DNA of 64,000 nucleotides from Solidesulfovibrio carbinoliphilus subsp. oakridgensis (GTDB lineage: Bacteria > Desulfobacterota > Desulfovibrionia > Desulfovibrionales > Desulfovibrionaceae). The number at the start of each line of letters is the position of its first letter. The first letter of the stretch is position 1. Below, one piece after another: positions 1 through 8,422 of this stretch. Below the pieces are notes generated by a model, which did not search any database, was not told where the DNA came from, and worked only from the letters and a program-made list of their open reading frames with translations. A program made the position numbers and the translations under genes. The DNA lies in assembly GCF_000177215.2 (NCBI RefSeq), contig NZ_CM001368.1, positions 434,001 through 498,000 on the forward strand, in the 5' to 3' direction.

Positions 1-429
1 AAGGCCCGCCGCCATGTGCTCCAAAACCTCGACACCATGGTGGTCAAGGCCGCGGCCGAATCCGGCGGCTACGGCATGCTGGTCGGCCCTGCGGCCACGC
101 CCGAGGAACGCCGGGCCTTTGCCGCCAAGATCGAGGCCGATCCCCGGAACTACATCGCCCAGCCGACCATCGGCCTCTCGCGCACCCCGGTCATTGTCGG
201 CGACCGGTTCGAGGGCCGCCACGTGGACCTGCGGCCCTACGTCCTTTACGGCGAGGACATCCGGGTCATCCCCGGGGGACTCACCCGGGTGGCCCTTAAA
301 AAGGGGTCGCTGGTGGTCAACTCCTCCCAGGGCGGCGGCAGCAAGGACACCTGGGTCCTCGGACCGGGGGCGGCCGCGGCCGCCCCGGCCGCCGACAAGC
401 GGGGGCAGGAGCAGGGCCGGCGGGGTTGA
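1..429 (+). CDS. Circularly permuted ATP-grasp protein (C-terminal fragment)
   Basis: The frame is open at base 1, so only about the last 142 residues are present and the start lies outside the window. The visible part carries the conserved segments [31 protein letters not shown] and [11 protein letters not shown], which are typical of the C-terminal region of circularly permuted type 2 ATP-grasp proteins. The family is predicted to form amide bonds, probably in peptide or glutamyl ligation, but its substrate is not established. The C-terminal 25 residues are Ala/Gly-rich and probably disordered. The alpha-E gene follows after 50 bases, and an Anbu peptidase and a transglutaminase complete the familiar gene set. 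Family assignment is firm; substrate is unknown. Confidence 0.85.
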
Positions 430-479
430 GGCATATGGCCGCGCCGGCGGCCGCAAGCGACCGATTTGCAGGAGGACCC

Positions 480-1454
480 ATGCTCAGTCGCGTGGCCGAC
501 GCCATCTACTGGATGAGCCGCTATCTCGAACGGGCCGAGAATATCGCCCGTTTCCTCGACGTCAACTGGCACCTCACCCTGGACACGCCCGGGCAGATGA
601 CCGAGCAATGGCTGCCGCTGGTGCGGGCCATGGGCGAGTTCGACCGGTTCACCGAGCGGGGGCTCGGCCACGACCGCACGAGCGTCATCCGCTTCCTGGC
701 CTTTGACGCGGCCTCGCCCAACTCCATCGTGTCCTGCCTGTCCCACGCCCGGGACAACGCCCGCACCATCCGCGAGATCATCCCCTCCGAGATGTGGGAG
801 CAGATCAACACGTTTTACCATCTGGTGCGCGAGGCGGCCCGCAACGGCGAGGAGGTCCTTCGAAACCCCTACCGCTTCTGCGACGAGGTCAAGCGCCGCG
901 ACCTGACCATAAGCGGCATTGCCGGCGACGCCATGTCCCACGACGAGGCCTGGGATTTTTTCCGTCTCGGCCGGCTGCTCGAACGGGCGGACAAGACCTC
1001 GCGCATCCTGGACGTCAAATACTTCATCCTCCTGCCCCATCCGGCGGATGTGGGCACCAACCTCGACTACGTGCAGTGGGCGGCCCTTTTAAAGGCCATA
1101 AGCGCCCTGGAGGCCTACCGCCGCCGCCACGGCCGCATCCAGCCCGACCGCATCGTCGAGTTCCTGCTCCTGGACCACGACTTTCCCCGGTCCGTGTTGT
1201 GCTGCCTGACCAAGGCCAAGGAGTGCCTGCACGCCATCACCGGCACGACCATGGGGTATTTCTCCAATCCGGCGGAAAAGCGCCTGGGGCATCTCTGCGG
1301 CGACCTGGCCTACAGCGGCGTGGACGAGATTTTCGCCCTGGGGCTCCACGAATTCACGGACACGTTGCAGACGCGCATGAACCTGGTGGACGAGGCCGTG
1401 TTCGCCACGTTTTTCTCAACCTTTCCGGCTATTGACGCCGCCAGCCAACAGTGA
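480..1454 (+). CDS. Alpha-E domain protein (DUF403)
   Basis: This 324-residue, mostly helical protein begins MLSRVADAIYWMSRYLERAE, the characteristic opening of alpha-E proteins. The ATG at 480 is chosen over an in-frame start at 426 because it is preceded by GGAGG and family homology begins there. Alpha-E proteins occur next to, or fused to, circularly permuted ATP-grasp enzymes and are thought to act with them. No catalytic motif is visible, so a scaffold or substrate-binding role is only inferred. It lies between the ATP-grasp and the peptidase genes, and the next start is 13 bases after its stop, which suggests one transcript. Confidence 0.88.
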   Translation: MLSRVADAIYWMSRYLERAENIARFLDVNWHLTLDTPGQMTEQWLPLVRAMGEFDRFTERGLGHDRTSVIRFLAFDAASPNSIVSCLSHARDNARTIREIIPSEMWEQINTFYHLVREAARNGEEVLRNPYRFCDEVKRRDLTISGIAGDAMSHDEAWDFFRLGRLLERADKTSRILDVKYFILLPHPADVGTNLDYVQWAALLKAISALEAYRRRHGRIQPDRIVEFLLLDHDFPRSVLCCLTKAKECLHAITGTTMGYFSNPAEKRLGHLCGDLAYSGVDEIFALGLHEFTDTLQTRMNLVDEAVFATFFSTFPAIDAASQQ

Positions 1455-1467
1455 GAAACTTGACGCC

Positions 1468-2235
1468 ATGACATTTTGCCTGGGCATCACGGTCGAGGAA
1501 GGACTGGTCGGCATCGCCGACACCCGCATCACCTCCGGCAACGAACTGACCAGCGCCCAGAAGGTGACCACCTACCAGAACGGCAACGGCGCCTTTTTTC
1601 TCATGACCTCGGGCCTGCGTTCGGTGCGCGACAAGACGCTCACCTATTTCGACGAGACCCTGGAGGTCCGCTCCGAGCCCTTTGACAAGCTCTACAAGGC
1701 TGTCAACGCCTTTGCCGCCGAACTGCGGCGTGTGGGAACCGAGGACAAGGCCTTCCTGGCCGACTCCGGGCTGCGCTTCGACCTGTGCGCCCTGATCGGC
1801 GGCCAGTTGACGGGCGACCGCTCCCACAAGCTCTTTCTGGTCTATCCCGAAGGCAACTGGGTGGAGATCACCCCGGGTACGCCGTACCACATCATCGGTG
1901 AGGGCGGGTACGGCAAGCCGGTCCTCGACCGGACGCTCAAGTACTCCGATTCCCTGCGCATGGCCCTCAAAGTCGGCTGCCTGGCCTTCGATTCCACCCG
2001 CATCAGCGCCTCGGACGTGGATTTTCCCATCGACGTGGTCCTCTACCACAAGGGCTGCCTCGATCTCGTCCAGCACCGCTACGAGAAGGAGGATCTGGCC
2101 GAGATTTCCTCCTGGTGGCAGGAGCACCTGCGCGGCCTCGTCCACGACCTGCCCTCGGAGTGGATCGACAACGTGGCCTCCAAGCTGACCAAGGTCTCCC
2201 ACCGGGCTGCCTGCGATCCCCTGCCCCCGAAGTAG
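1468..2235 (+). CDS. Anbu-type proteasome-like peptidase
   Basis: The 255-residue product starts MTFCLGITVEEGLVGIADTR. The Thr immediately after the initiator Met, the Asp at residue 18 and a Lys at residue 32 fit the Ntn-hydrolase catalytic layout of proteasome beta/HslV/Anbu proteins. The start at 1468 exposes this Thr after Met removal; the in-frame upstream start at 1432 would bury it, so it is rejected. Anbu proteins form HslV-like assemblies but lack an assigned ATPase partner, and none is seen here. The association with ATP-grasp, alpha-E and transglutaminase genes is characteristic. Whether it cleaves a tag made by the ATP-grasp enzyme is inference. Confidence 0.87.
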   Translation: MTFCLGITVEEGLVGIADTRITSGNELTSAQKVTTYQNGNGAFFLMTSGLRSVRDKTLTYFDETLEVRSEPFDKLYKAVNAFAAELRRVGTEDKAFLADSGLRFDLCALIGGQLTGDRSHKLFLVYPEGNWVEITPGTPYHIIGEGGYGKPVLDRTLKYSDSLRMALKVGCLAFDSTRISASDVDFPIDVVLYHKGCLDLVQHRYEKEDLAEISSWWQEHLRGLVHDLPSEWIDNVASKLTKVSHRAACDPLPPK

Positions 2236-2238
2236 CCC

Positions 2239-3084
2239 GTGCAGTATCGTCTCACGCACCGCACCGCCTACGCCTTCGACCGTCCCGTGTTCCTCGAGCC
2301 CCACCACATCCGGCTCGTGCCGCGCGGCGACGGGTCCCAGCGTCTCCACGCCCTGGACGTGGCCATCGAGCCCGAGCCGGCCGGCCGGTCGCTTCTGACC
2401 GATCTCCACGGCAACACCGTGGTCGCGGCCTGGTTTGGGGGGCTGGCCGACCGGCTGGTGGTGACGACCACGGCGCGCGGCGAGACGCTGCGGCCAAACC
2501 CTTTTGATTATCTTCCCGACCAGGGCGCCGATGTCCTGCCCGTGCCGTTGTCCAAGGCGGCGGCCGCCTCGGCCGCGCCCTGCCTGGCCCCGGTCCGGGC
2601 CCCGCACGGCGAAGCCGCCGCCCTGGCCGACCGGCTGGTCCGGGACGGGGCGAGAGGGCCCCAGGCCTTTGCCCAGGCGCTTCTTGGCTGGATGGCCGGC
2701 CGGCTGGCCACGGTCGCGCGTCCGGAGCCCGGCCTTCTTTCCCCGGACGCGGTCCTGGCGCGCGGGCAGGGGGCCTGCCGCGATCTGGCGGTCTTTTTCC
2801 TGGCCGCCTGCCGGCGCGTCGGCCTGCCGGCCCGGTTCGTCAGCGGCTATCATGAAGGCGAGCCGGAAAGCGGGGAGAGGGACCTGCACGCCTGGGCCGA
2901 GGCGTATCTCCCGGGCGGCGGCTGGCGCGGCTTCGATCCGTCGCTCGGCCTGGCCGTGGCCGACCGCCATGTGGCCGTGGCCGCGGCCCCGGACCCCGAG
3001 GACGCGGCGCCGGTTGTGGGCGCGTTTCGCGGGGAGGGGAACATGGTCGGTCTTACCCACGCCATATGCCTGGAGATGTCCTGA
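2239..3084 (+). CDS. Transglutaminase-like cysteine protease family protein
   Basis: The product has 281 residues and starts with GTG three bases after the preceding stop, so it is probably translationally coupled. Residues 1-90 match the N-terminal beta domain of bacterial transglutaminase-like proteins (MQYRLTHRTAYAFDRPV). The core has Cys180 in GQGACRDLA, His217 in DLHAWAEAYLP and Asp233 in GFDPSLGL, giving the complete papain-like triad. There is no signal peptide, so it should act in the cytoplasm. In this gene set the enzyme is predicted to hydrolyse or form isopeptide bonds made by the ATP-grasp partner, but the substrate is unknown. A GC stretch followed by a run of eight T at 3096-3113 may help end the operon. 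Confidence 0.88.
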   Translation: MQYRLTHRTAYAFDRPVFLEPHHIRLVPRGDGSQRLHALDVAIEPEPAGRSLLTDLHGNTVVAAWFGGLADRLVVTTTARGETLRPNPFDYLPDQGADVLPVPLSKAAAASAAPCLAPVRAPHGEAAALADRLVRDGARGPQAFAQALLGWMAGRLATVARPEPGLLSPDAVLARGQGACRDLAVFFLAACRRVGLPARFVSGYHEGEPESGERDLHAWAEAYLPGGGWRGFDPSLGLAVADRHVAVAAAPDPEDAAPVVGAFRGEGNMVGLTHAICLEMS

Positions 3085-3165: not shown

Positions 3166-6100
3166 ATGAAGCTCTTTACGCGTCTCTTCCGTGCGTTTTT
3201 CCGGCACGCTTTTTTTTGCGTCGTCCTGTCGGCGCTGCTGTGTGTTGTTTCCGCCTCCCGGACCGTGGCCGCCGCCCTCGATCTCACACCCGAGGAAAAG
3301 GCCTTTGTCGCAGCCCATCCGGTCGTGACCATAAGCGACGTGGACTGGCAGCCGCTGTCCATCGTGGCCGACGGCCGGCAGCAGGGGCTTTTCCACGACT
3401 ATTACGCGCTCATCGCCGAGCGCACGGGCCTGGCTTTTCGCTTTGTCCCCCTGGGCGACGGCCTGGACTTCCAGGTCGTGCTCGACGCCCTGCGCGACAA
3501 GCGCATCGACCTGATCGACGGCACGGGCAAGACCGCCGACCGGGCCGCCTACGCCCTTTTCGCCGGTCCGTTTTTCCGTTTTCCCCTGGCCGTGGCCTCG
3601 CGCGACGACGGGGTGGCCTATTCCCTCGAAACCCTGGCCGGCAAGAACGTGGCCGTGGCCCGGGGCTCGACCGCCGAGGAGTACCTGCGGGAGCGCGCCC
3701 CGGGCCTGTCCCTGGTCGAGACGCCCGATCCCGTGGCCGGACTGACCCTGGTCGCCACCCACAAGGCCGAGGCGGCCGTGGAGAACATGGCCGTCGCCGC
3801 CTACGCCATACGCAAGGCGGGGCTTGCCAACGTCAAGATTTCCGGCGTCCTCGACTACCAGTTCGAGATCTTTTCCCTGGTCCGGACCGACTGGCCGCTT
3901 CTGGCCTCCATTCTCCAGAAGGCCCACGACTCCGTGACCGAAGGGGAGAAGGCGGTCCTGCTCGCCAAGTGGCTGCCGGTCTACAAGGACGGCATGCAGG
4001 GCGGGGACCGGTCGGCCGAACAGGGGGAACGACGGGCCCCCGGACCCTCCATTGCCCTGACCGACCGGGAGCGGGAGTACCTGTCCCGGAAAAAAGCCCT
4101 GGCCTACTGCGTGGACCCGGACTGGGCCCCGATCGAGCGCATCGACGAGAACGGCCGCCATATCGGCATTTCCGCGGATTTCCTGTCCCTTATGGGCGAG
4201 CGGCTGGGCGTGCCCGTGGTGCTCGTGCCGACGAGTTCCTGGAGCCAGTCCCTGGCCGCGGTCAAGAACAGGCGCTGCGACTTCCTGCCCGCCGCCGGCG
4301 AGACCAAAGACCGCCGCCGCTTTCTGCTGTTCTCCTCGCCCTACCTGCGTTTCCCCATGGTCGTGGCCACCCAGGCCAAGGCCCCGTTCGTCAACGATCC
4401 GGCCGACCTGGCCGGCAAGACCCTCGGCGTGGTCAATGGCTACGCCAGTCTCGACATCCTGCGGGCCAAATACGCGGACATCCGCCTCATGGAAGTGGCC
4501 AGCGTGTCCGAAGGGCTGCGGCTCGTGGCCGAGGGCAAGCTCTTCGGCTATATCGACACCGTCCCGGCCATCAGCCAGGCCATGGCCAAGGACCACTTCA
4601 GCGACCTCAAGATCGCCGGCCGCCTCGACGCCCATCTGGATCTGGCCGTGGCCAGCCGCGACGACGAGCCGGAGCTGGCCTCGCTGTTCCAAAAAGCGGT
4701 CAATTCCCTGACCACCGAGGAATCCGACGCCATCATCAAGAAGTGGGTGGCCGTCACCTTCGAACAAAAGTTCGACTACGCCCTGCTGTGGAAGGTCCTG
4801 GCCGGGGCCGCCGTGGTCATGGCCGTGGTGGTCTGGTGGAACCGCAAGCTTTCCCGCCTCAATCGGGCCCTGCGCCAGGCCCACGAGGCCCTGGACGCCA
4901 CCAACCGGCGCCTGGCCGCGCTCCTCGACAACGCCGGCCAGGGCTTTTTGTCCGTCGGCCCGGACGGCCTGGTGGAACCCCAGTACAGCCAGGAGTGCCG
5001 CCACCTCTTCGGCGGGGACATCGAGGGGAAAGACGTGGCCGGGCTCCTTTTCCCGGACGACCCGGCGGCCGGCGAAACCATGGCCGGCAACGTCCGCCGC
5101 GTCCTCGACGAGCCGGACGCCTACCGCCGCTCCCTCTACCTTTCCCTCATGCCGGCCCGGGTCGTGCGGGCCGGGGCCAGCCTGCGGCTGGCCTACCGTC
5201 CCCTGGAGGACGGCCGGCTCATGTTCGTCATTACCGACGTCACCGGCGAGGTCCGTCTGAAGGACGCCGTGGCCAGGGAGCGCAACCGGCTTGCCTGCGT
5301 GGTGGCGGTGGTGCGCGAGCAGCGGGACTTTTTCACGGTCCTCGACGCCTTTGCCGCCTTCCGCCGGGACGGTGCCGCCGGGGCCGCCGACACCCCGGAC
5401 GGGCGGGCGGCCCTGGACGTCGTCTACCGGCAGGTCCACACCTTAAAGGGCCTCTTCCTCCAGCTCGAATGCGCCCACGTGGCCCGGGCCCTGGACGACA
5501 TGGAAGGCCGGCTTGCCGCCCTGCGCCAGGCCGGAGGCGCGGACCGGGCCGGACTTGCGGCCGTTTTGGCCGACACGGCCGTGGACGCGGCCCTGTCCGA
5601 GGACCTGGACGTGGTGCGCGAGGCCCTGGGGCCGGAGTTTTTCACCCGGCGGGGCGAAGTCTGCCTTGGCGGCGAACTGGCCGACGCCCTGTCCAGGCTG
5701 GCGGAAAAGCTTCTGGCCCGGCGTGGCGAGGATGGCTTTTCGCCGGCGGACGTGGCGGTCCTGGAAGCGGCCCGGGCCCTGCGGTTCGTGGATCTCAAAA
5801 AGCTTTTGTCCGCCTATCCCCGGACGGCCGGCCGCCTGGCCGCGGCCAGGGGGAAGTCGCTTGTTCCCTTTGACGTGGAAGGCGACAGCCTCCCGGTCGA
5901 TCCGGCCCGGTTCGGGCCCCTGGCCAAAAGCCTCGTCCACGTCTTTCGAAACGCCGTGGACCATGGCCTCGAAACACCGGCCGAACGGACCGCGGCCGGC
6001 AAGGATCCGGCCGGCCGCATCGCCTGCCGTGTGGCGGCCGAGGACGGCCGGGTCCGGATCGAAGTGGCCGAGGATGGCCGGGGCGTGGACATCGGGTCGG

Positions 6101-6375
6101 TCCGGACCCGCGCCTTCGAGCTGGGCCTTGGCGGGGCGGAGGAACTGGCGGCCATGGACGACGCCGCCATCCTGGATCTCGTTTTCCGCGACGGCTTCAC
6201 CTCGCGGCGGGTGGCCGGGGAACTTTCCGGCCGGGGCGTGGGCCTGTCCGCGGTCCGGGCCGAGGCCGAGCGCCTGGGCGGCCGGGTCTTTTTGGAAAAC
6301 CGTCCGGGCCGGGGCACGCGGCTTGTGGTGGACGTGCCCCTGGACCGGCCAGACGCTTCGTTGGAGAACGTATGA
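3166..6375 (+). CDS. Membrane sensor: two solute-binding domains, Hpt and HATPase
   Basis: This 1069-residue protein starts at ATG 3166, where a signal peptide (MKLFTRLFRAFF then a hydrophobic stretch) begins. Two successive family-3 solute-binding domains follow (about residues 40-275 and 300-545), then one membrane helix near residue 550-565, a short coiled coil and a PAS-like region. His758 in YRQVHTLKG is the phosphorylatable His of an Hpt domain. The C terminus is a GHKL ATPase with N-box NAVDH (Asn929) and glycine boxes DGRGVD and GRGVGLSAV. No CheW domain or HisKA dimer helix is visible. The protein therefore looks like a membrane kinase with CheA-like Hpt chemistry that senses periplasmic ligands. 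It overlaps the CheX gene by 4 bases (ATGA). Confidence 0.82.
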   Translation: MKLFTRLFRAFFRHAFFCVVLSALLCVVSASRTVAAALDLTPEEKAFVAAHPVVTISDVDWQPLSIVADGRQQGLFHDYYALIAERTGLAFRFVPLGDGLDFQVVLDALRDKRIDLIDGTGKTADRAAYALFAGPFFRFPLAVASRDDGVAYSLETLAGKNVAVARGSTAEEYLRERAPGLSLVETPDPVAGLTLVATHKAEAAVENMAVAAYAIRKAGLANVKISGVLDYQFEIFSLVRTDWPLLASILQKAHDSVTEGEKAVLLAKWLPVYKDGMQGGDRSAEQGERRAPGPSIALTDREREYLSRKKALAYCVDPDWAPIERIDENGRHIGISADFLSLMGERLGVPVVLVPTSSWSQSLAAVKNRRCDFLPAAGETKDRRRFLLFSSPYLRFPMVVATQAKAPFVNDPADLAGKTLGVVNGYASLDILRAKYADIRLMEVASVSEGLRLVAEGKLFGYIDTVPAISQAMAKDHFSDLKIAGRLDAHLDLAVASRDDEPELASLFQKAVNSLTTEESDAIIKKWVAVTFEQKFDYALLWKVLAGAAVVMAVVVWWNRKLSRLNRALRQAHEALDATNRRLAALLDNAGQGFLSVGPDGLVEPQYSQECRHLFGGDIEGKDVAGLLFPDDPAAGETMAGNVRRVLDEPDAYRRSLYLSLMPARVVRAGASLRLAYRPLEDGRLMFVITDVTGEVRLKDAVARERNRLACVVAVVREQRDFFTVLDAFAAFRRDGAAGAADTPDGRAALDVVYRQVHTLKGLFLQLECAHVARALDDMEGRLAALRQAGGADRAGLAAVLADTAVDAALSEDLDVVREALGPEFFTRRGEVCLGGELADALSRLAEKLLARRGEDGFSPADVAVLEAARALRFVDLKKLLSAYPRTAGRLAAARGKSLVPFDVEGDSLPVDPARFGPLAKSLVHVFRNAVDHGLETPAERTAAGKDPAGRIACRVAAEDGRVRIEVAEDGRGVDIGSVRTRAFELGLGGAEELAAMDDAAILDLVFRDGFTSRRVAGELSGRGVGLSAVRAEAERLGGRVFLENRPGRGTRLVVDVPLDRPDASLENV

Positions 6376-6893
6376 TCGAACACCTGGACGTCAACGCGTT
6401 CCTGGACGCCCTGAACCGCAGGACCGAGGCCTTTTTCCGGGAAGAGCTCGGCATCGGCATCACCAGCCGGTCTTTCCAGATCGACGACGTGCAAAAGCTC
6501 GATCTCAAGCACCTGACGGCCATCATGAGCGCCACGGGCGCCCTCAAGCTCTACCTGGCCTACAGCTTCGAGGCCGCGCTCATCGACGCGGCCTTCACCG
6601 CCTATACCGCCGACCTCGACATCGATCCCGGGGAACGCGACGACGCCATCCAGGAAACGGCCGGCGACATCATCAACATCATCGTCGGCAACGCCCTGGC
6701 CGACATCGCCGCCAAAGGCCCGGCCATCGCCCTGTCTCCGCCCATCATCCTGACCGAGGCCAAGTCGGTCATGCGCCACCGGGGGGCGAAATTCGCCTCG
6801 GCCGAGCTGGCCACGGCCGCGGGCAACCTGAGCATCCACCTGATCGGACCGGGCGAACTGTTTAACGACTCCCTTGAGTATGTGAAGGAGTAG
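6372..6893 (+). CDS. CheX-like chemotaxis phosphatase
   Basis: The 173-residue protein resembles CheX/CheC-type phosphatases, which dephosphorylate CheY-like receivers. The segment IQETAGDIINIIVGNAL carries the conserved Glu and Asn of the family active-site helix, followed by the family's typical LSPPIILTE segment. The start codon overlaps the stop of the upstream sensor, and the cognate receiver gene follows three bases downstream. A role in resetting phospho-signal from the sensor or from the next receiver is a reasonable inference. Confidence 0.8.
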   Translation: MIEHLDVNAFLDALNRRTEAFFREELGIGITSRSFQIDDVQKLDLKHLTAIMSATGALKLYLAYSFEAALIDAAFTAYTADLDIDPGERDDAIQETAGDIINIIVGNALADIAAKGPAIALSPPIILTEAKSVMRHRGAKFASAELATAAGNLSIHLIGPGELFNDSLEYVKE

Positions 6894-6896
6894 GGC

Positions 6897-7274
6897 ATGA
6901 GAGCGCTTCGCATCATGATGGTGGACGACTCGGGCCTCACCGTGAAGAAAATGGCCAAGCTGCTGGAAGAACTGGGCCATGAGGTGGCGGGTACGGCCAC
7001 GACCGGCTGGGAGGCCGTGGACGCCTACGCCGCCGTCGCCCCGGATATGGTCACCATGGACATCACCATGCCCGACATGAACGGCATCGAGGCCACGCGC
7101 CTGATCATGGCCGCCGATCCGGCCGCCCGCATCGTCATCGTCACCTCCCACGGCCAGGAGCAGATGGTCATGGACGCCATCGAGGCCGGGGCCAAGGGCT
7201 ATGTGCTCAAACCCGTCAAAAAGGAAAAACTGGCCGAAACCCTGGAAACCGTGGCGGCCAAGTATCTGCCATGA
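6897..7274 (+). CDS. CheY-like single-domain response regulator
   Basis: The product is a stand-alone receiver of 125 residues. It has the acidic pair in MMVDDSG, the phosphoacceptor Asp in MDITMPDMNG, the Thr/Ser switch in VTSHGQ and the conserved Lys in LKPVKKEK. There is no output domain, so it must act through protein contacts, like CheY or Spo0F. It sits between the CheX-like phosphatase and the PAS histidine kinase, with a 4-base overlap with the latter, which argues that it is the receiver of this operon. Confidence 0.93.
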   Translation: MRALRIMMVDDSGLTVKKMAKLLEELGHEVAGTATTGWEAVDAYAAVAPDMVTMDITMPDMNGIEATRLIMAADPAARIVIVTSHGQEQMVMDAIEAGAKGYVLKPVKKEKLAETLETVAAKYLP

Positions 7275-8422
7275 ATGCTTCCATGCTCGAAAGCGCCCTG
7301 CTCCAGACGCACTTCGACGTCATCCCCTTCGGCATCTATGTCGTGGATGTGGCGACCTACGAGTTGGTGTTCGTCAACAAGCACTTTCGCGACGCCCTGG
7401 GGGCCGGCCTTGGCCGCAAGTGCCACGAGGTCCTCTACGAGAGCGACGCGCCGTGCCTCAACTGCCGCATCCCCGAGCTCCTGACCCCGGCTGGCATGCC
7501 AAACGGCGTCACCGTGGTCTACGACCACTATAACGAACGCGACGAGCGCTGGGCCCAGATGCAGGAAAAGACCATGGGCTGGCCCGACGGCCGGGTGGTC
7601 AAGTATTCCATCGCGGTCGACATCTCCGAACTCAAGGAGACGCAAAACAGCCTGGCCGAGGCCCACGCCGAGCTGGCCATCCGCAACCGGGAGCTGATGG
7701 CCCAAAACCGCATCCTCCAGGAAAATATCGAGCTTCGCGAACACGTGGAGCGCATCGCCCGCCATGACCTGAAGGCCCCGCTCTCGGCCCTGATCGGCCT
7801 GCCCCAGGTCCTGCTCGACAATTACGATCTGCCCGACGCGGCTGCGGACGCGGTGCGCCTGATCGAACAGGCCGGCCACTCCATGCTCGAAATGCTGAAC
7901 CAATCCCTGGTCCTTTTCCGCCTGGAAACCGGCGCCTACGTCCTTTCGCCCACAGCCGTCGATCTGGCCGACCTGGCCCGGCGCACGGCCGCGCGGATGG
8001 CCACCATGCCCGTGGCCCGGGGCCGGAAGATCCGCGTCAGCCTGGCCGGCCGGCCCCTGGCCCCGGGAGAGCGGCTCGATTATTCCGGCGATGTCCTGCT
8101 CCTTGGCCCCATGCTCCAGAACCTGGTGGTCAACGGCCTCGAGGCCTCGCCCATGGGCGGCGAGGTGACGATCGACCTGGTGCGCGACCGGGACCGGGTG
8201 CTCGTGGCCGTCACCAACCAGGGCGAGGTGCCGGAACCGATCCGGTGCCGGATGTTCGCGAAATACGTCACCATGGGCAAGCGGGGCGGCACCGGCCTCG
8301 GGGCCTATTCCGCGGCCCTGGCGGCCCGGGCCCATGGCGGCCAAATCGAGCTCGACGCCGCCACTCCCGGTTGGACCACGGTGGCCGTCATCCTGCCGTC
8401 CGCTCCCGGTGTCGCCCCATGA
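7271..8422 (+). CDS. PAS-domain sensor histidine kinase
   Basis: This 383-residue cytoplasmic kinase has an N-terminal PAS domain (about residues 8-120), a coiled linker, and a dimerisation helix with phospho-acceptor His165 in ERIARHDLKAP. An HATPase domain occupies about residues 270-380 (N box NLVVNGLEA; final glycine box GGTGLGAYSA). The PAS has Cys51 and a Cys62-x2-Cys65 pair (PCLNCR) that could bind a cofactor or sense redox. No membrane segments are seen. The PAS is a close paralogue of that in the next gene, whose start overlaps this stop. The likely receiver is the CheY-like product directly upstream. Confidence 0.9.
   Translation: MNASMLESALLQTHFDVIPFGIYVVDVATYELVFVNKHFRDALGAGLGRKCHEVLYESDAPCLNCRIPELLTPAGMPNGVTVVYDHYNERDERWAQMQEKTMGWPDGRVVKYSIAVDISELKETQNSLAEAHAELAIRNRELMAQNRILQENIELREHVERIARHDLKAPLSALIGLPQVLLDNYDLPDAAADAVRLIEQAGHSMLEMLNQSLVLFRLETGAYVLSPTAVDLADLARRTAARMATMPVARGRKIRVSLAGRPLAPGERLDYSGDVLLLGPMLQNLVVNGLEASPMGGEVTIDLVRDRDRVLVAVTNQGEVPEPIRCRMFAKYVTMGKRGGTGLGAYSAALAARAHGGQIELDAATPGWTTVAVILPSAPGVAP

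Follow-up and report, generated by a model that had tools for sequence, protein, structure and literature searches.

Anbu is a proteasome-like protein described as an open-ring dodecamer whose subunits have a long C-terminal helix. Its operon was defined in 2008-2009, and crystal structures with some biochemistry have been available from 2017 (PMC5666114, PMC6376114). Operons with an Anbu of the subtype Anbu-1, such as those of Pseudomonas aeruginosa (PA1733), Yersinia bercovieri and Pseudomonas putida (PP_2685-2688, an Anbu operon on our reading of its product names), encode Anbu together with an ATP-grasp enzyme, an alpha-E protein and a transglutaminase-like enzyme; the active site contains Thr, Asp and Lys, and no AAA+ partner is found in the operon (PMC5666114, PMC6376114). 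The second subtype, Anbu-2, is described as having a basic S1 pocket that might prefer acidic residues, as in Cytophaga hutchinsonii CHU_3460, and delta-proteobacteria are among its hosts (PMC5666114). The same four families, with the same active-site residues and again without an AAA+ gene, open the stretch analysed here, 64,000 nucleotides of the genome of Solidesulfovibrio carbinoliphilus subsp. oakridgensis (the window). They are a further, well-preserved Anbu-2 copy of this published and unsolved operon, real and mostly ordinary; the first-pass annotation had presented the locus as a poorly described system, a description that the publications above do not bear out.

The operon occupies the first 3084 bases of the window, which corresponds to G000:C1:434001-498000 of a 4.22 Mb genome (G and L numbers are our own handles for genomes and loci). 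The window begins inside the ATP-grasp gene, of which the C-terminal 142 of 501 residues are encoded at 1-429; the whole gene spans G000:C1:432924-434429 (= L002:8924-10429) and starts 1077 bases before the window. It is followed by the genes for alpha-E (480-1454, 324 residues), Anbu (1468-2235, 255 residues) and the transglutaminase-like cysteine enzyme (2239-3084, GTG start, 281 residues), all on the + strand and separated by 50, 13 and 3 bases. For alpha-E the mechanical reading frame runs from 426, but the match to PF04168 begins at the ATG at 480; for Anbu the frame runs from a TTG at 1432, and 24 of 24 relatives align from the ATG at 1468. The four gene assignments of the first-pass annotation are borne out by Pfam and PDB searches, that of Anbu by the PDB search, and NCBIfam has no name for any of the four proteins. 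The annotation was also right in seeing no ATPase beside the peptidase, since a Pfam scan of the seven neighbouring genes, one of which has no Pfam match, found no AAA+ ATPase.

Anbu is recognised through its solved relatives: phmmer aligns it to five Anbu sequences of the PDB (E 7.6e-33 to 1.7e-23, best 5loy) from query residue 1 or 2 to 223-230 of 255, while no Pfam or NCBIfam family matches it at E <= 0.001. The protein fits the pattern of a Met-Thr start without propeptide, Asp17 and Lys32/33, with Asp18 and Lys32 conserved, and judging from the sequence Thr2 is expected to be the N-terminal nucleophile once Met is removed. This Thr, already singled out in the annotation, is general in the family. 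A set of 112 Anbu proteins was compared, made up of the present one, 82 encoded at 80 named loci and 29 from further genomes of the phylum; Met is followed by Thr in 111 of them and by Ser in the remaining protein, and none of the 112 lacks the active-site Asp or Lys. The named loci are the best 80 of 598 Anbu stretches, and more exist; Anbu was sought with one protein query, which still retrieved an Anbu-1 of 29% identity at E about 1e-22. The closest named relative among these best 80 is Solidesulfovibrio magneticus UBA7700 (L111), with 82% Anbu identity, very near records possibly having been omitted.

At the S1 pocket positions taken from PMC5666114, the protein has I21, A30, T47, R51 and R54, counted from Met. 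The 112 sequences fall into two classes with no intermediates: at mature positions 50 and 53, 64 of them, the present one included, have two Arg, and the other 48 have Leu with Ser/Thr. The window Anbu belongs to Anbu-2, with a basic S1 pocket predicted from R50/R53. It is 29-30% identical to the two Anbu-1 proteins of its phylum, which have Leu and Ser/Thr at these two positions. The pocket of the C. hutchinsonii Anbu-2 is likewise basic and, compared from the published list alone, reads I20-A29-R46-R50-T53 against I20-A29-T46-R50-R53 here, a difference that may be real or merely one of list order (PMC5666114). In three Dyadobacter loci (L131, L133, L145) the Anbu-2 protein has Lys at S1 position 29, and none of the operon partners was found within 4.5 kb; ATP-grasp and alpha-E are encoded elsewhere in these genomes, and the stray proteins are possibly a specialised second lineage.

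The distribution of the genes indicates how Anbu relates to its partners. Among 150 genomes of the order, Anbu is present in 25 and alpha-E in 28, and all 25 lie within the 28; under independence of the genomes, which does not hold, the chance of this overlap would be 1.7e-25. ATP-grasp, alpha-E, Anbu and transglutaminase follow each other in this order on one strand in all 25 Anbu genomes, one end gene being truncated by a contig end in L057, L060 and L061; the genomic linkage seen at this single locus in the first-pass annotation is thus a regular feature and not a rare one. In a sample of 395 genomes of the phylum, Anbu occurs in eight (three of which also belong to the order sample) and alpha-E in 19, again with all eight inside the 19, and the operon is kept together in seven of the eight. 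The exception is G479, where Anbu is about 390 kb away from the alpha-E genes. This stray copy, an Anbu-1, lies beside a transglutaminase and an N-formylglutamate amidohydrolase (PF05013) at 6355-8693 of L097 (G479:C1:690500-707500); the amidohydrolase was considered as an operon gene and rejected, being present only in L097 out of 123 loci searched. Genomes with alpha-E and no Anbu match number 3 of 28 in the order and 11 of 19 in the phylum.

Beyond the phylum sample, 78 of the 80 named Anbu loci come from genomes with alpha-E. It lies within 4.5 kb on the same strand in 54 of them, and all three partners do so in 43; in the 26 genomes without an adjacent alpha-E, it is found elsewhere in 24 and an ATP-grasp somewhere in 25. 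In seven of the 54 that strand shows no transglutaminase over the 4.5 kb searched, the gene being divergently upstream in three and further upstream in one. Gene order was counted on 82 entries from the 80 loci, L152 and L185 entering twice with a second copy. The order alpha-E, transglutaminase, Anbu is the commonest of Anbu-1 (22 of 46 entries, against 3 of 36 for Anbu-2); the order alpha-E, Anbu, transglutaminase, which is that of the present operon, is found in 17 of 36 Anbu-2 and 7 of 46 Anbu-1 entries, so that gene order as a marker of subtype had to be given up as a mere tendency. Thus, but for two exceptions, the range of Anbu in the samples searched is nested within the wider one of alpha-E and ATP-grasp.

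Phylogenetic analysis adds a second pattern. From 101 loci (the 80 named ones and 21 of 30 Anbu-bearing regions of the order and phylum), 59 carry the full set of four genes, the ATP-grasp being nearly full-length; 36 of these are Anbu-2 and 23 Anbu-1. On FastTree trees of these operons the Anbu subtype changes once for ATP-grasp, alpha-E and Anbu and twice for transglutaminase, and the tree distances between partners correlate at 0.77-0.92. Alignment columns that differ by Anbu subtype at a level of at least 85% in each group are ten in ATP-grasp, seven in alpha-E and zero in transglutaminase.

The partner proteins are themselves well conserved. The ATP-grasp, of the circularly permuted type, matches PF14403 (E 1.4e-165, profile positions 1-374 of 374) and PF04174 (E 7.1e-142, 1-332 of 332) over their full length. 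Residues invariant in 59 of 59 operons, candidates for a catalytic role, include K375 and others inside the window and E168, D169, N170, R172, D326, D327 and K328 upstream of it; the part of the gene that the first-pass annotation could not see therefore does contain conserved residues. The transglutaminase matches PF01841 (E 6.9e-22) and PF08379 (E 5.6e-19), and its triad is complete, as had been claimed, with C180, H217 and D233; across the 59 operons the Cys is kept in 57, and the His and the Asp in 59 each.

Alpha-E, identified by PF04168 (E 1.8e-100), is an internal tandem duplication: hhalign pairs residues 4-144 (489-911, + strand) with residues 155-303 (942-1388, + strand) at a probability of 99.5 and E 2.5e-23. 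In single-sequence self-comparisons nine of ten proteins gave z values of 9.4-17.8 against shuffles and one (L121) gave no signal. Each half has one Glu-Arg motif, E17-R18 in the first and E168-R169 in the second, and all four residues are the same in each of 39 aligned sequences. A limited literature search found no mention of the duplication, which is not claimed as new. The protein has no PDB match by sequence; its AlphaFold (AF2) model has a mean pLDDT of 90.7 and a pTM of 0.89, and a Foldseek search of the PDB for a known fold returned no match at E <= 0.001 (best E 0.26). For an all-helical repeat model such a miss is weak evidence, and a new fold is not claimed.

The simplest reading of the nesting suggests that Anbu is an add-on: since it occurs where ATP-grasp and alpha-E occur and shares the shape of their trees, it would act on the product that these two make. 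We favour, at a probability of about 0.45, a co-inherited pathway of four enzymes in which an amide or isopeptide bond is first formed and later cleaved. What the data show of it is gene content and order, conserved residues, subtype, joint inheritance and nesting. In the order of steps that we infer, together with the bond, the substrate and the acidic specificity, the ATP-grasp would activate a carboxylate by ATP and couple it to an amine with the help of alpha-E; the transglutaminase-like enzyme would transfer or hydrolyse an amide of the product; and Anbu-2, an N-terminal nucleophile (Ntn) hydrolase with two arginines in S1, may cut the product after an acidic residue. Peptide ligation, which the first-pass annotation had ascribed to the operon, is likewise a suggestion of comparative genomics.

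Several observations weigh against this pathway. The Anbu proteins assayed in PMC6376114 and PMC5666114 cleaved no standard substrate, and the former saw no specific interaction of Anbu with its operon partners. Plain shared ancestry would produce matching trees as well, so that these show joint inheritance, not contact. That Anbu always adjoins alpha-E is ruled out by 26 of the 80 named loci, where alpha-E is not within 4.5 kb, and adjacency is not obligate; two Anbu genomes, G534 (2.2 Mb) and G549 (3.6 Mb), which may be incomplete, showed no alpha-E at all. The transglutaminases of two Anbu-1 operons, L185 and L188, lack the Cys and keep His and Asp. A search of neighbouring genes, based on two rounds of clustering of the reading frames of 29 regions, with those overlapping the four genes left out of the second round, gave no candidate substrate gene among the families present in at least four regions. 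Finally, control by sigma-54/NtrC was rejected: a scan of 22 upstream regions of the order with a sigma-54 consensus showed no enrichment (mean best score 10.93, background 10.64), and the score of the best site of the present locus is matched by 42% of random windows.

The strongest competitor, which we consider rather doubtful, is that Anbu is a general ATP-independent processive protease, which would degrade peptides or damaged proteins, perhaps when nitrogen is scarce; the partners would feed or regulate it, and there would be no dedicated tag. PMC5666114 prefers degradation over peptide synthesis as the role of Anbu, reading the many-site ring, the binding of inhibitors and the two pocket types in this sense; there, the P. 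aeruginosa protein, an Anbu-1, bound proteasome inhibitors and the tested Anbu-2 did not. Expression on nitrate fits as well, since PP_2685 and PP_2688 of P. putida rise by log2 fold changes of 4.4 and 4.0 over ammonium (PMC8050072). The same expression data are counted for the preferred four-enzyme pathway too, as is the NtrC regulon of Burkholderia cenocepacia, which includes a cluster of DUF403, DUF404/407 and transglutaminase-like proteins, with no Anbu named (PMC5491218). These data from other species point to nitrogen, and for Solidesulfovibrio a nitrogen link is inferred. A division of labour would also be conceivable, because the same genome has a complete, adjacent HslV-HslU pair at about C1:3.39 Mb (L066, G000:C1:3386000-3396000, 3497-5567; named by NCBIfam TIGR03692 and TIGR00390) and thus encodes two proteasome-like proteases, of which HslVU could cover the ATP-dependent branch. 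HslV is, like Anbu, a proteasome-like Thr protease; unlike Anbu, it is adjoined by its ATPase gene and detected by PF00227, which misses the present Anbu. Against a general protease stand the failure to find peptidase activity in PMC6376114 and the nesting of Anbu within the range of a ligase-like enzyme, for which such a protease would have no need.

It is unlikely, in our view, that the product of the operon is a small diffusible metabolite, a peptide or amide serving for instance as a nitrogen store, which Anbu recycles without any protein being modified. The PDB sequence nearest to the ATP-grasp, 3n6x (E 2.9e-161), is annotated as a putative glutathionylspermidine synthase, and in marine metagenomes the domains of ATP-grasp, alpha-E and transglutaminase cluster with those of urea use (PMC3597751). 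Moreover, these three families also form operons of their own, like the present one in three of four families and differing in having no Anbu; several genomes add to them a second, apparently fused ATP-grasp/alpha-E set. Such a metabolite is opposed by the neighbouring families in at least four of the 29 regions, among which no transporter or precursor gene is common to the present locus and regions beyond the genus, and a dodecameric ring would be unusual for an amidase of small molecules.

A more specific form of the preferred pathway, distinctly improbable as it stands, makes Anbu-2 the dedicated eraser of an isopeptide chain rich in Glu/Asp, written by ATP-grasp and alpha-E; alpha-E, a duplicated helical protein that carries a Glu-Arg motif in each half and has numerous invariant arginines, would hold the acidic chain for both enzymes. 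If true, this would be a bacterial tag system with a writer, a holder and a proteasome-like eraser, and no unfoldase. Least probable is that Anbu acts in the cell as a transpeptidase or ligase and not as a hydrolase, as the absence of detectable hydrolysis (PMC6376114) and its relative connectase, a proteasome-like protein ligase, might suggest, since connectase is monomeric and without the first two helices (PMC8665760) and the literature examined, as far as accessible, mentions no Anbu ligation product.

On the - strand, divergent and about 200 bases before the ATP-grasp gene, a gene without Pfam match (L002:7821-8726) falls into a cluster with members in the seven regions of its genus and none in the remaining 22. 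Directly downstream, at 3166-8422 of the window, lie genes for a sensor kinase with two solute-binding stretches, a CheX-like phosphatase, a response regulator and a histidine kinase. As a fifth operon gene, the only family of the present locus that, among those in at least four regions, reaches beyond the genus, a sensor-kinase-like one, was rejected (11 of 29 regions, four outside the genus); an ABC-ATPase-like cluster in five regions and the remaining clusters outside the genus, in four regions each, do not include the present locus. Four loci of one genus (L047, L048, L049, L055) have a common sigma-54-like site about 225 bases upstream, with scores of 12.5-13.0 that are reached by 0-8% of background windows; close kinship could explain it, and sigma-54 control is not claimed. 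No tRNA gene or Rfam match was found within the window, and an anti-phage role was discarded after PADLOC gave no match to a known defence system for the four proteins at E <= 0.01.

The comparison adds three things to the published operon: the nested distribution, two pocket classes that separate cleanly and are matched by the partner trees, and the duplication of alpha-E. For the substrate of Anbu, a family named in 2008, nesting and matching trees together indicate where to look, namely in the product of ATP-grasp and alpha-E and not among the usual proteasome peptides on which the published assays relied. The two-class S1 pocket, in turn, predicts that the chemistry of the substrate would differ between Anbu-1 and Anbu-2, and permits a direct comparison of the two operon types.

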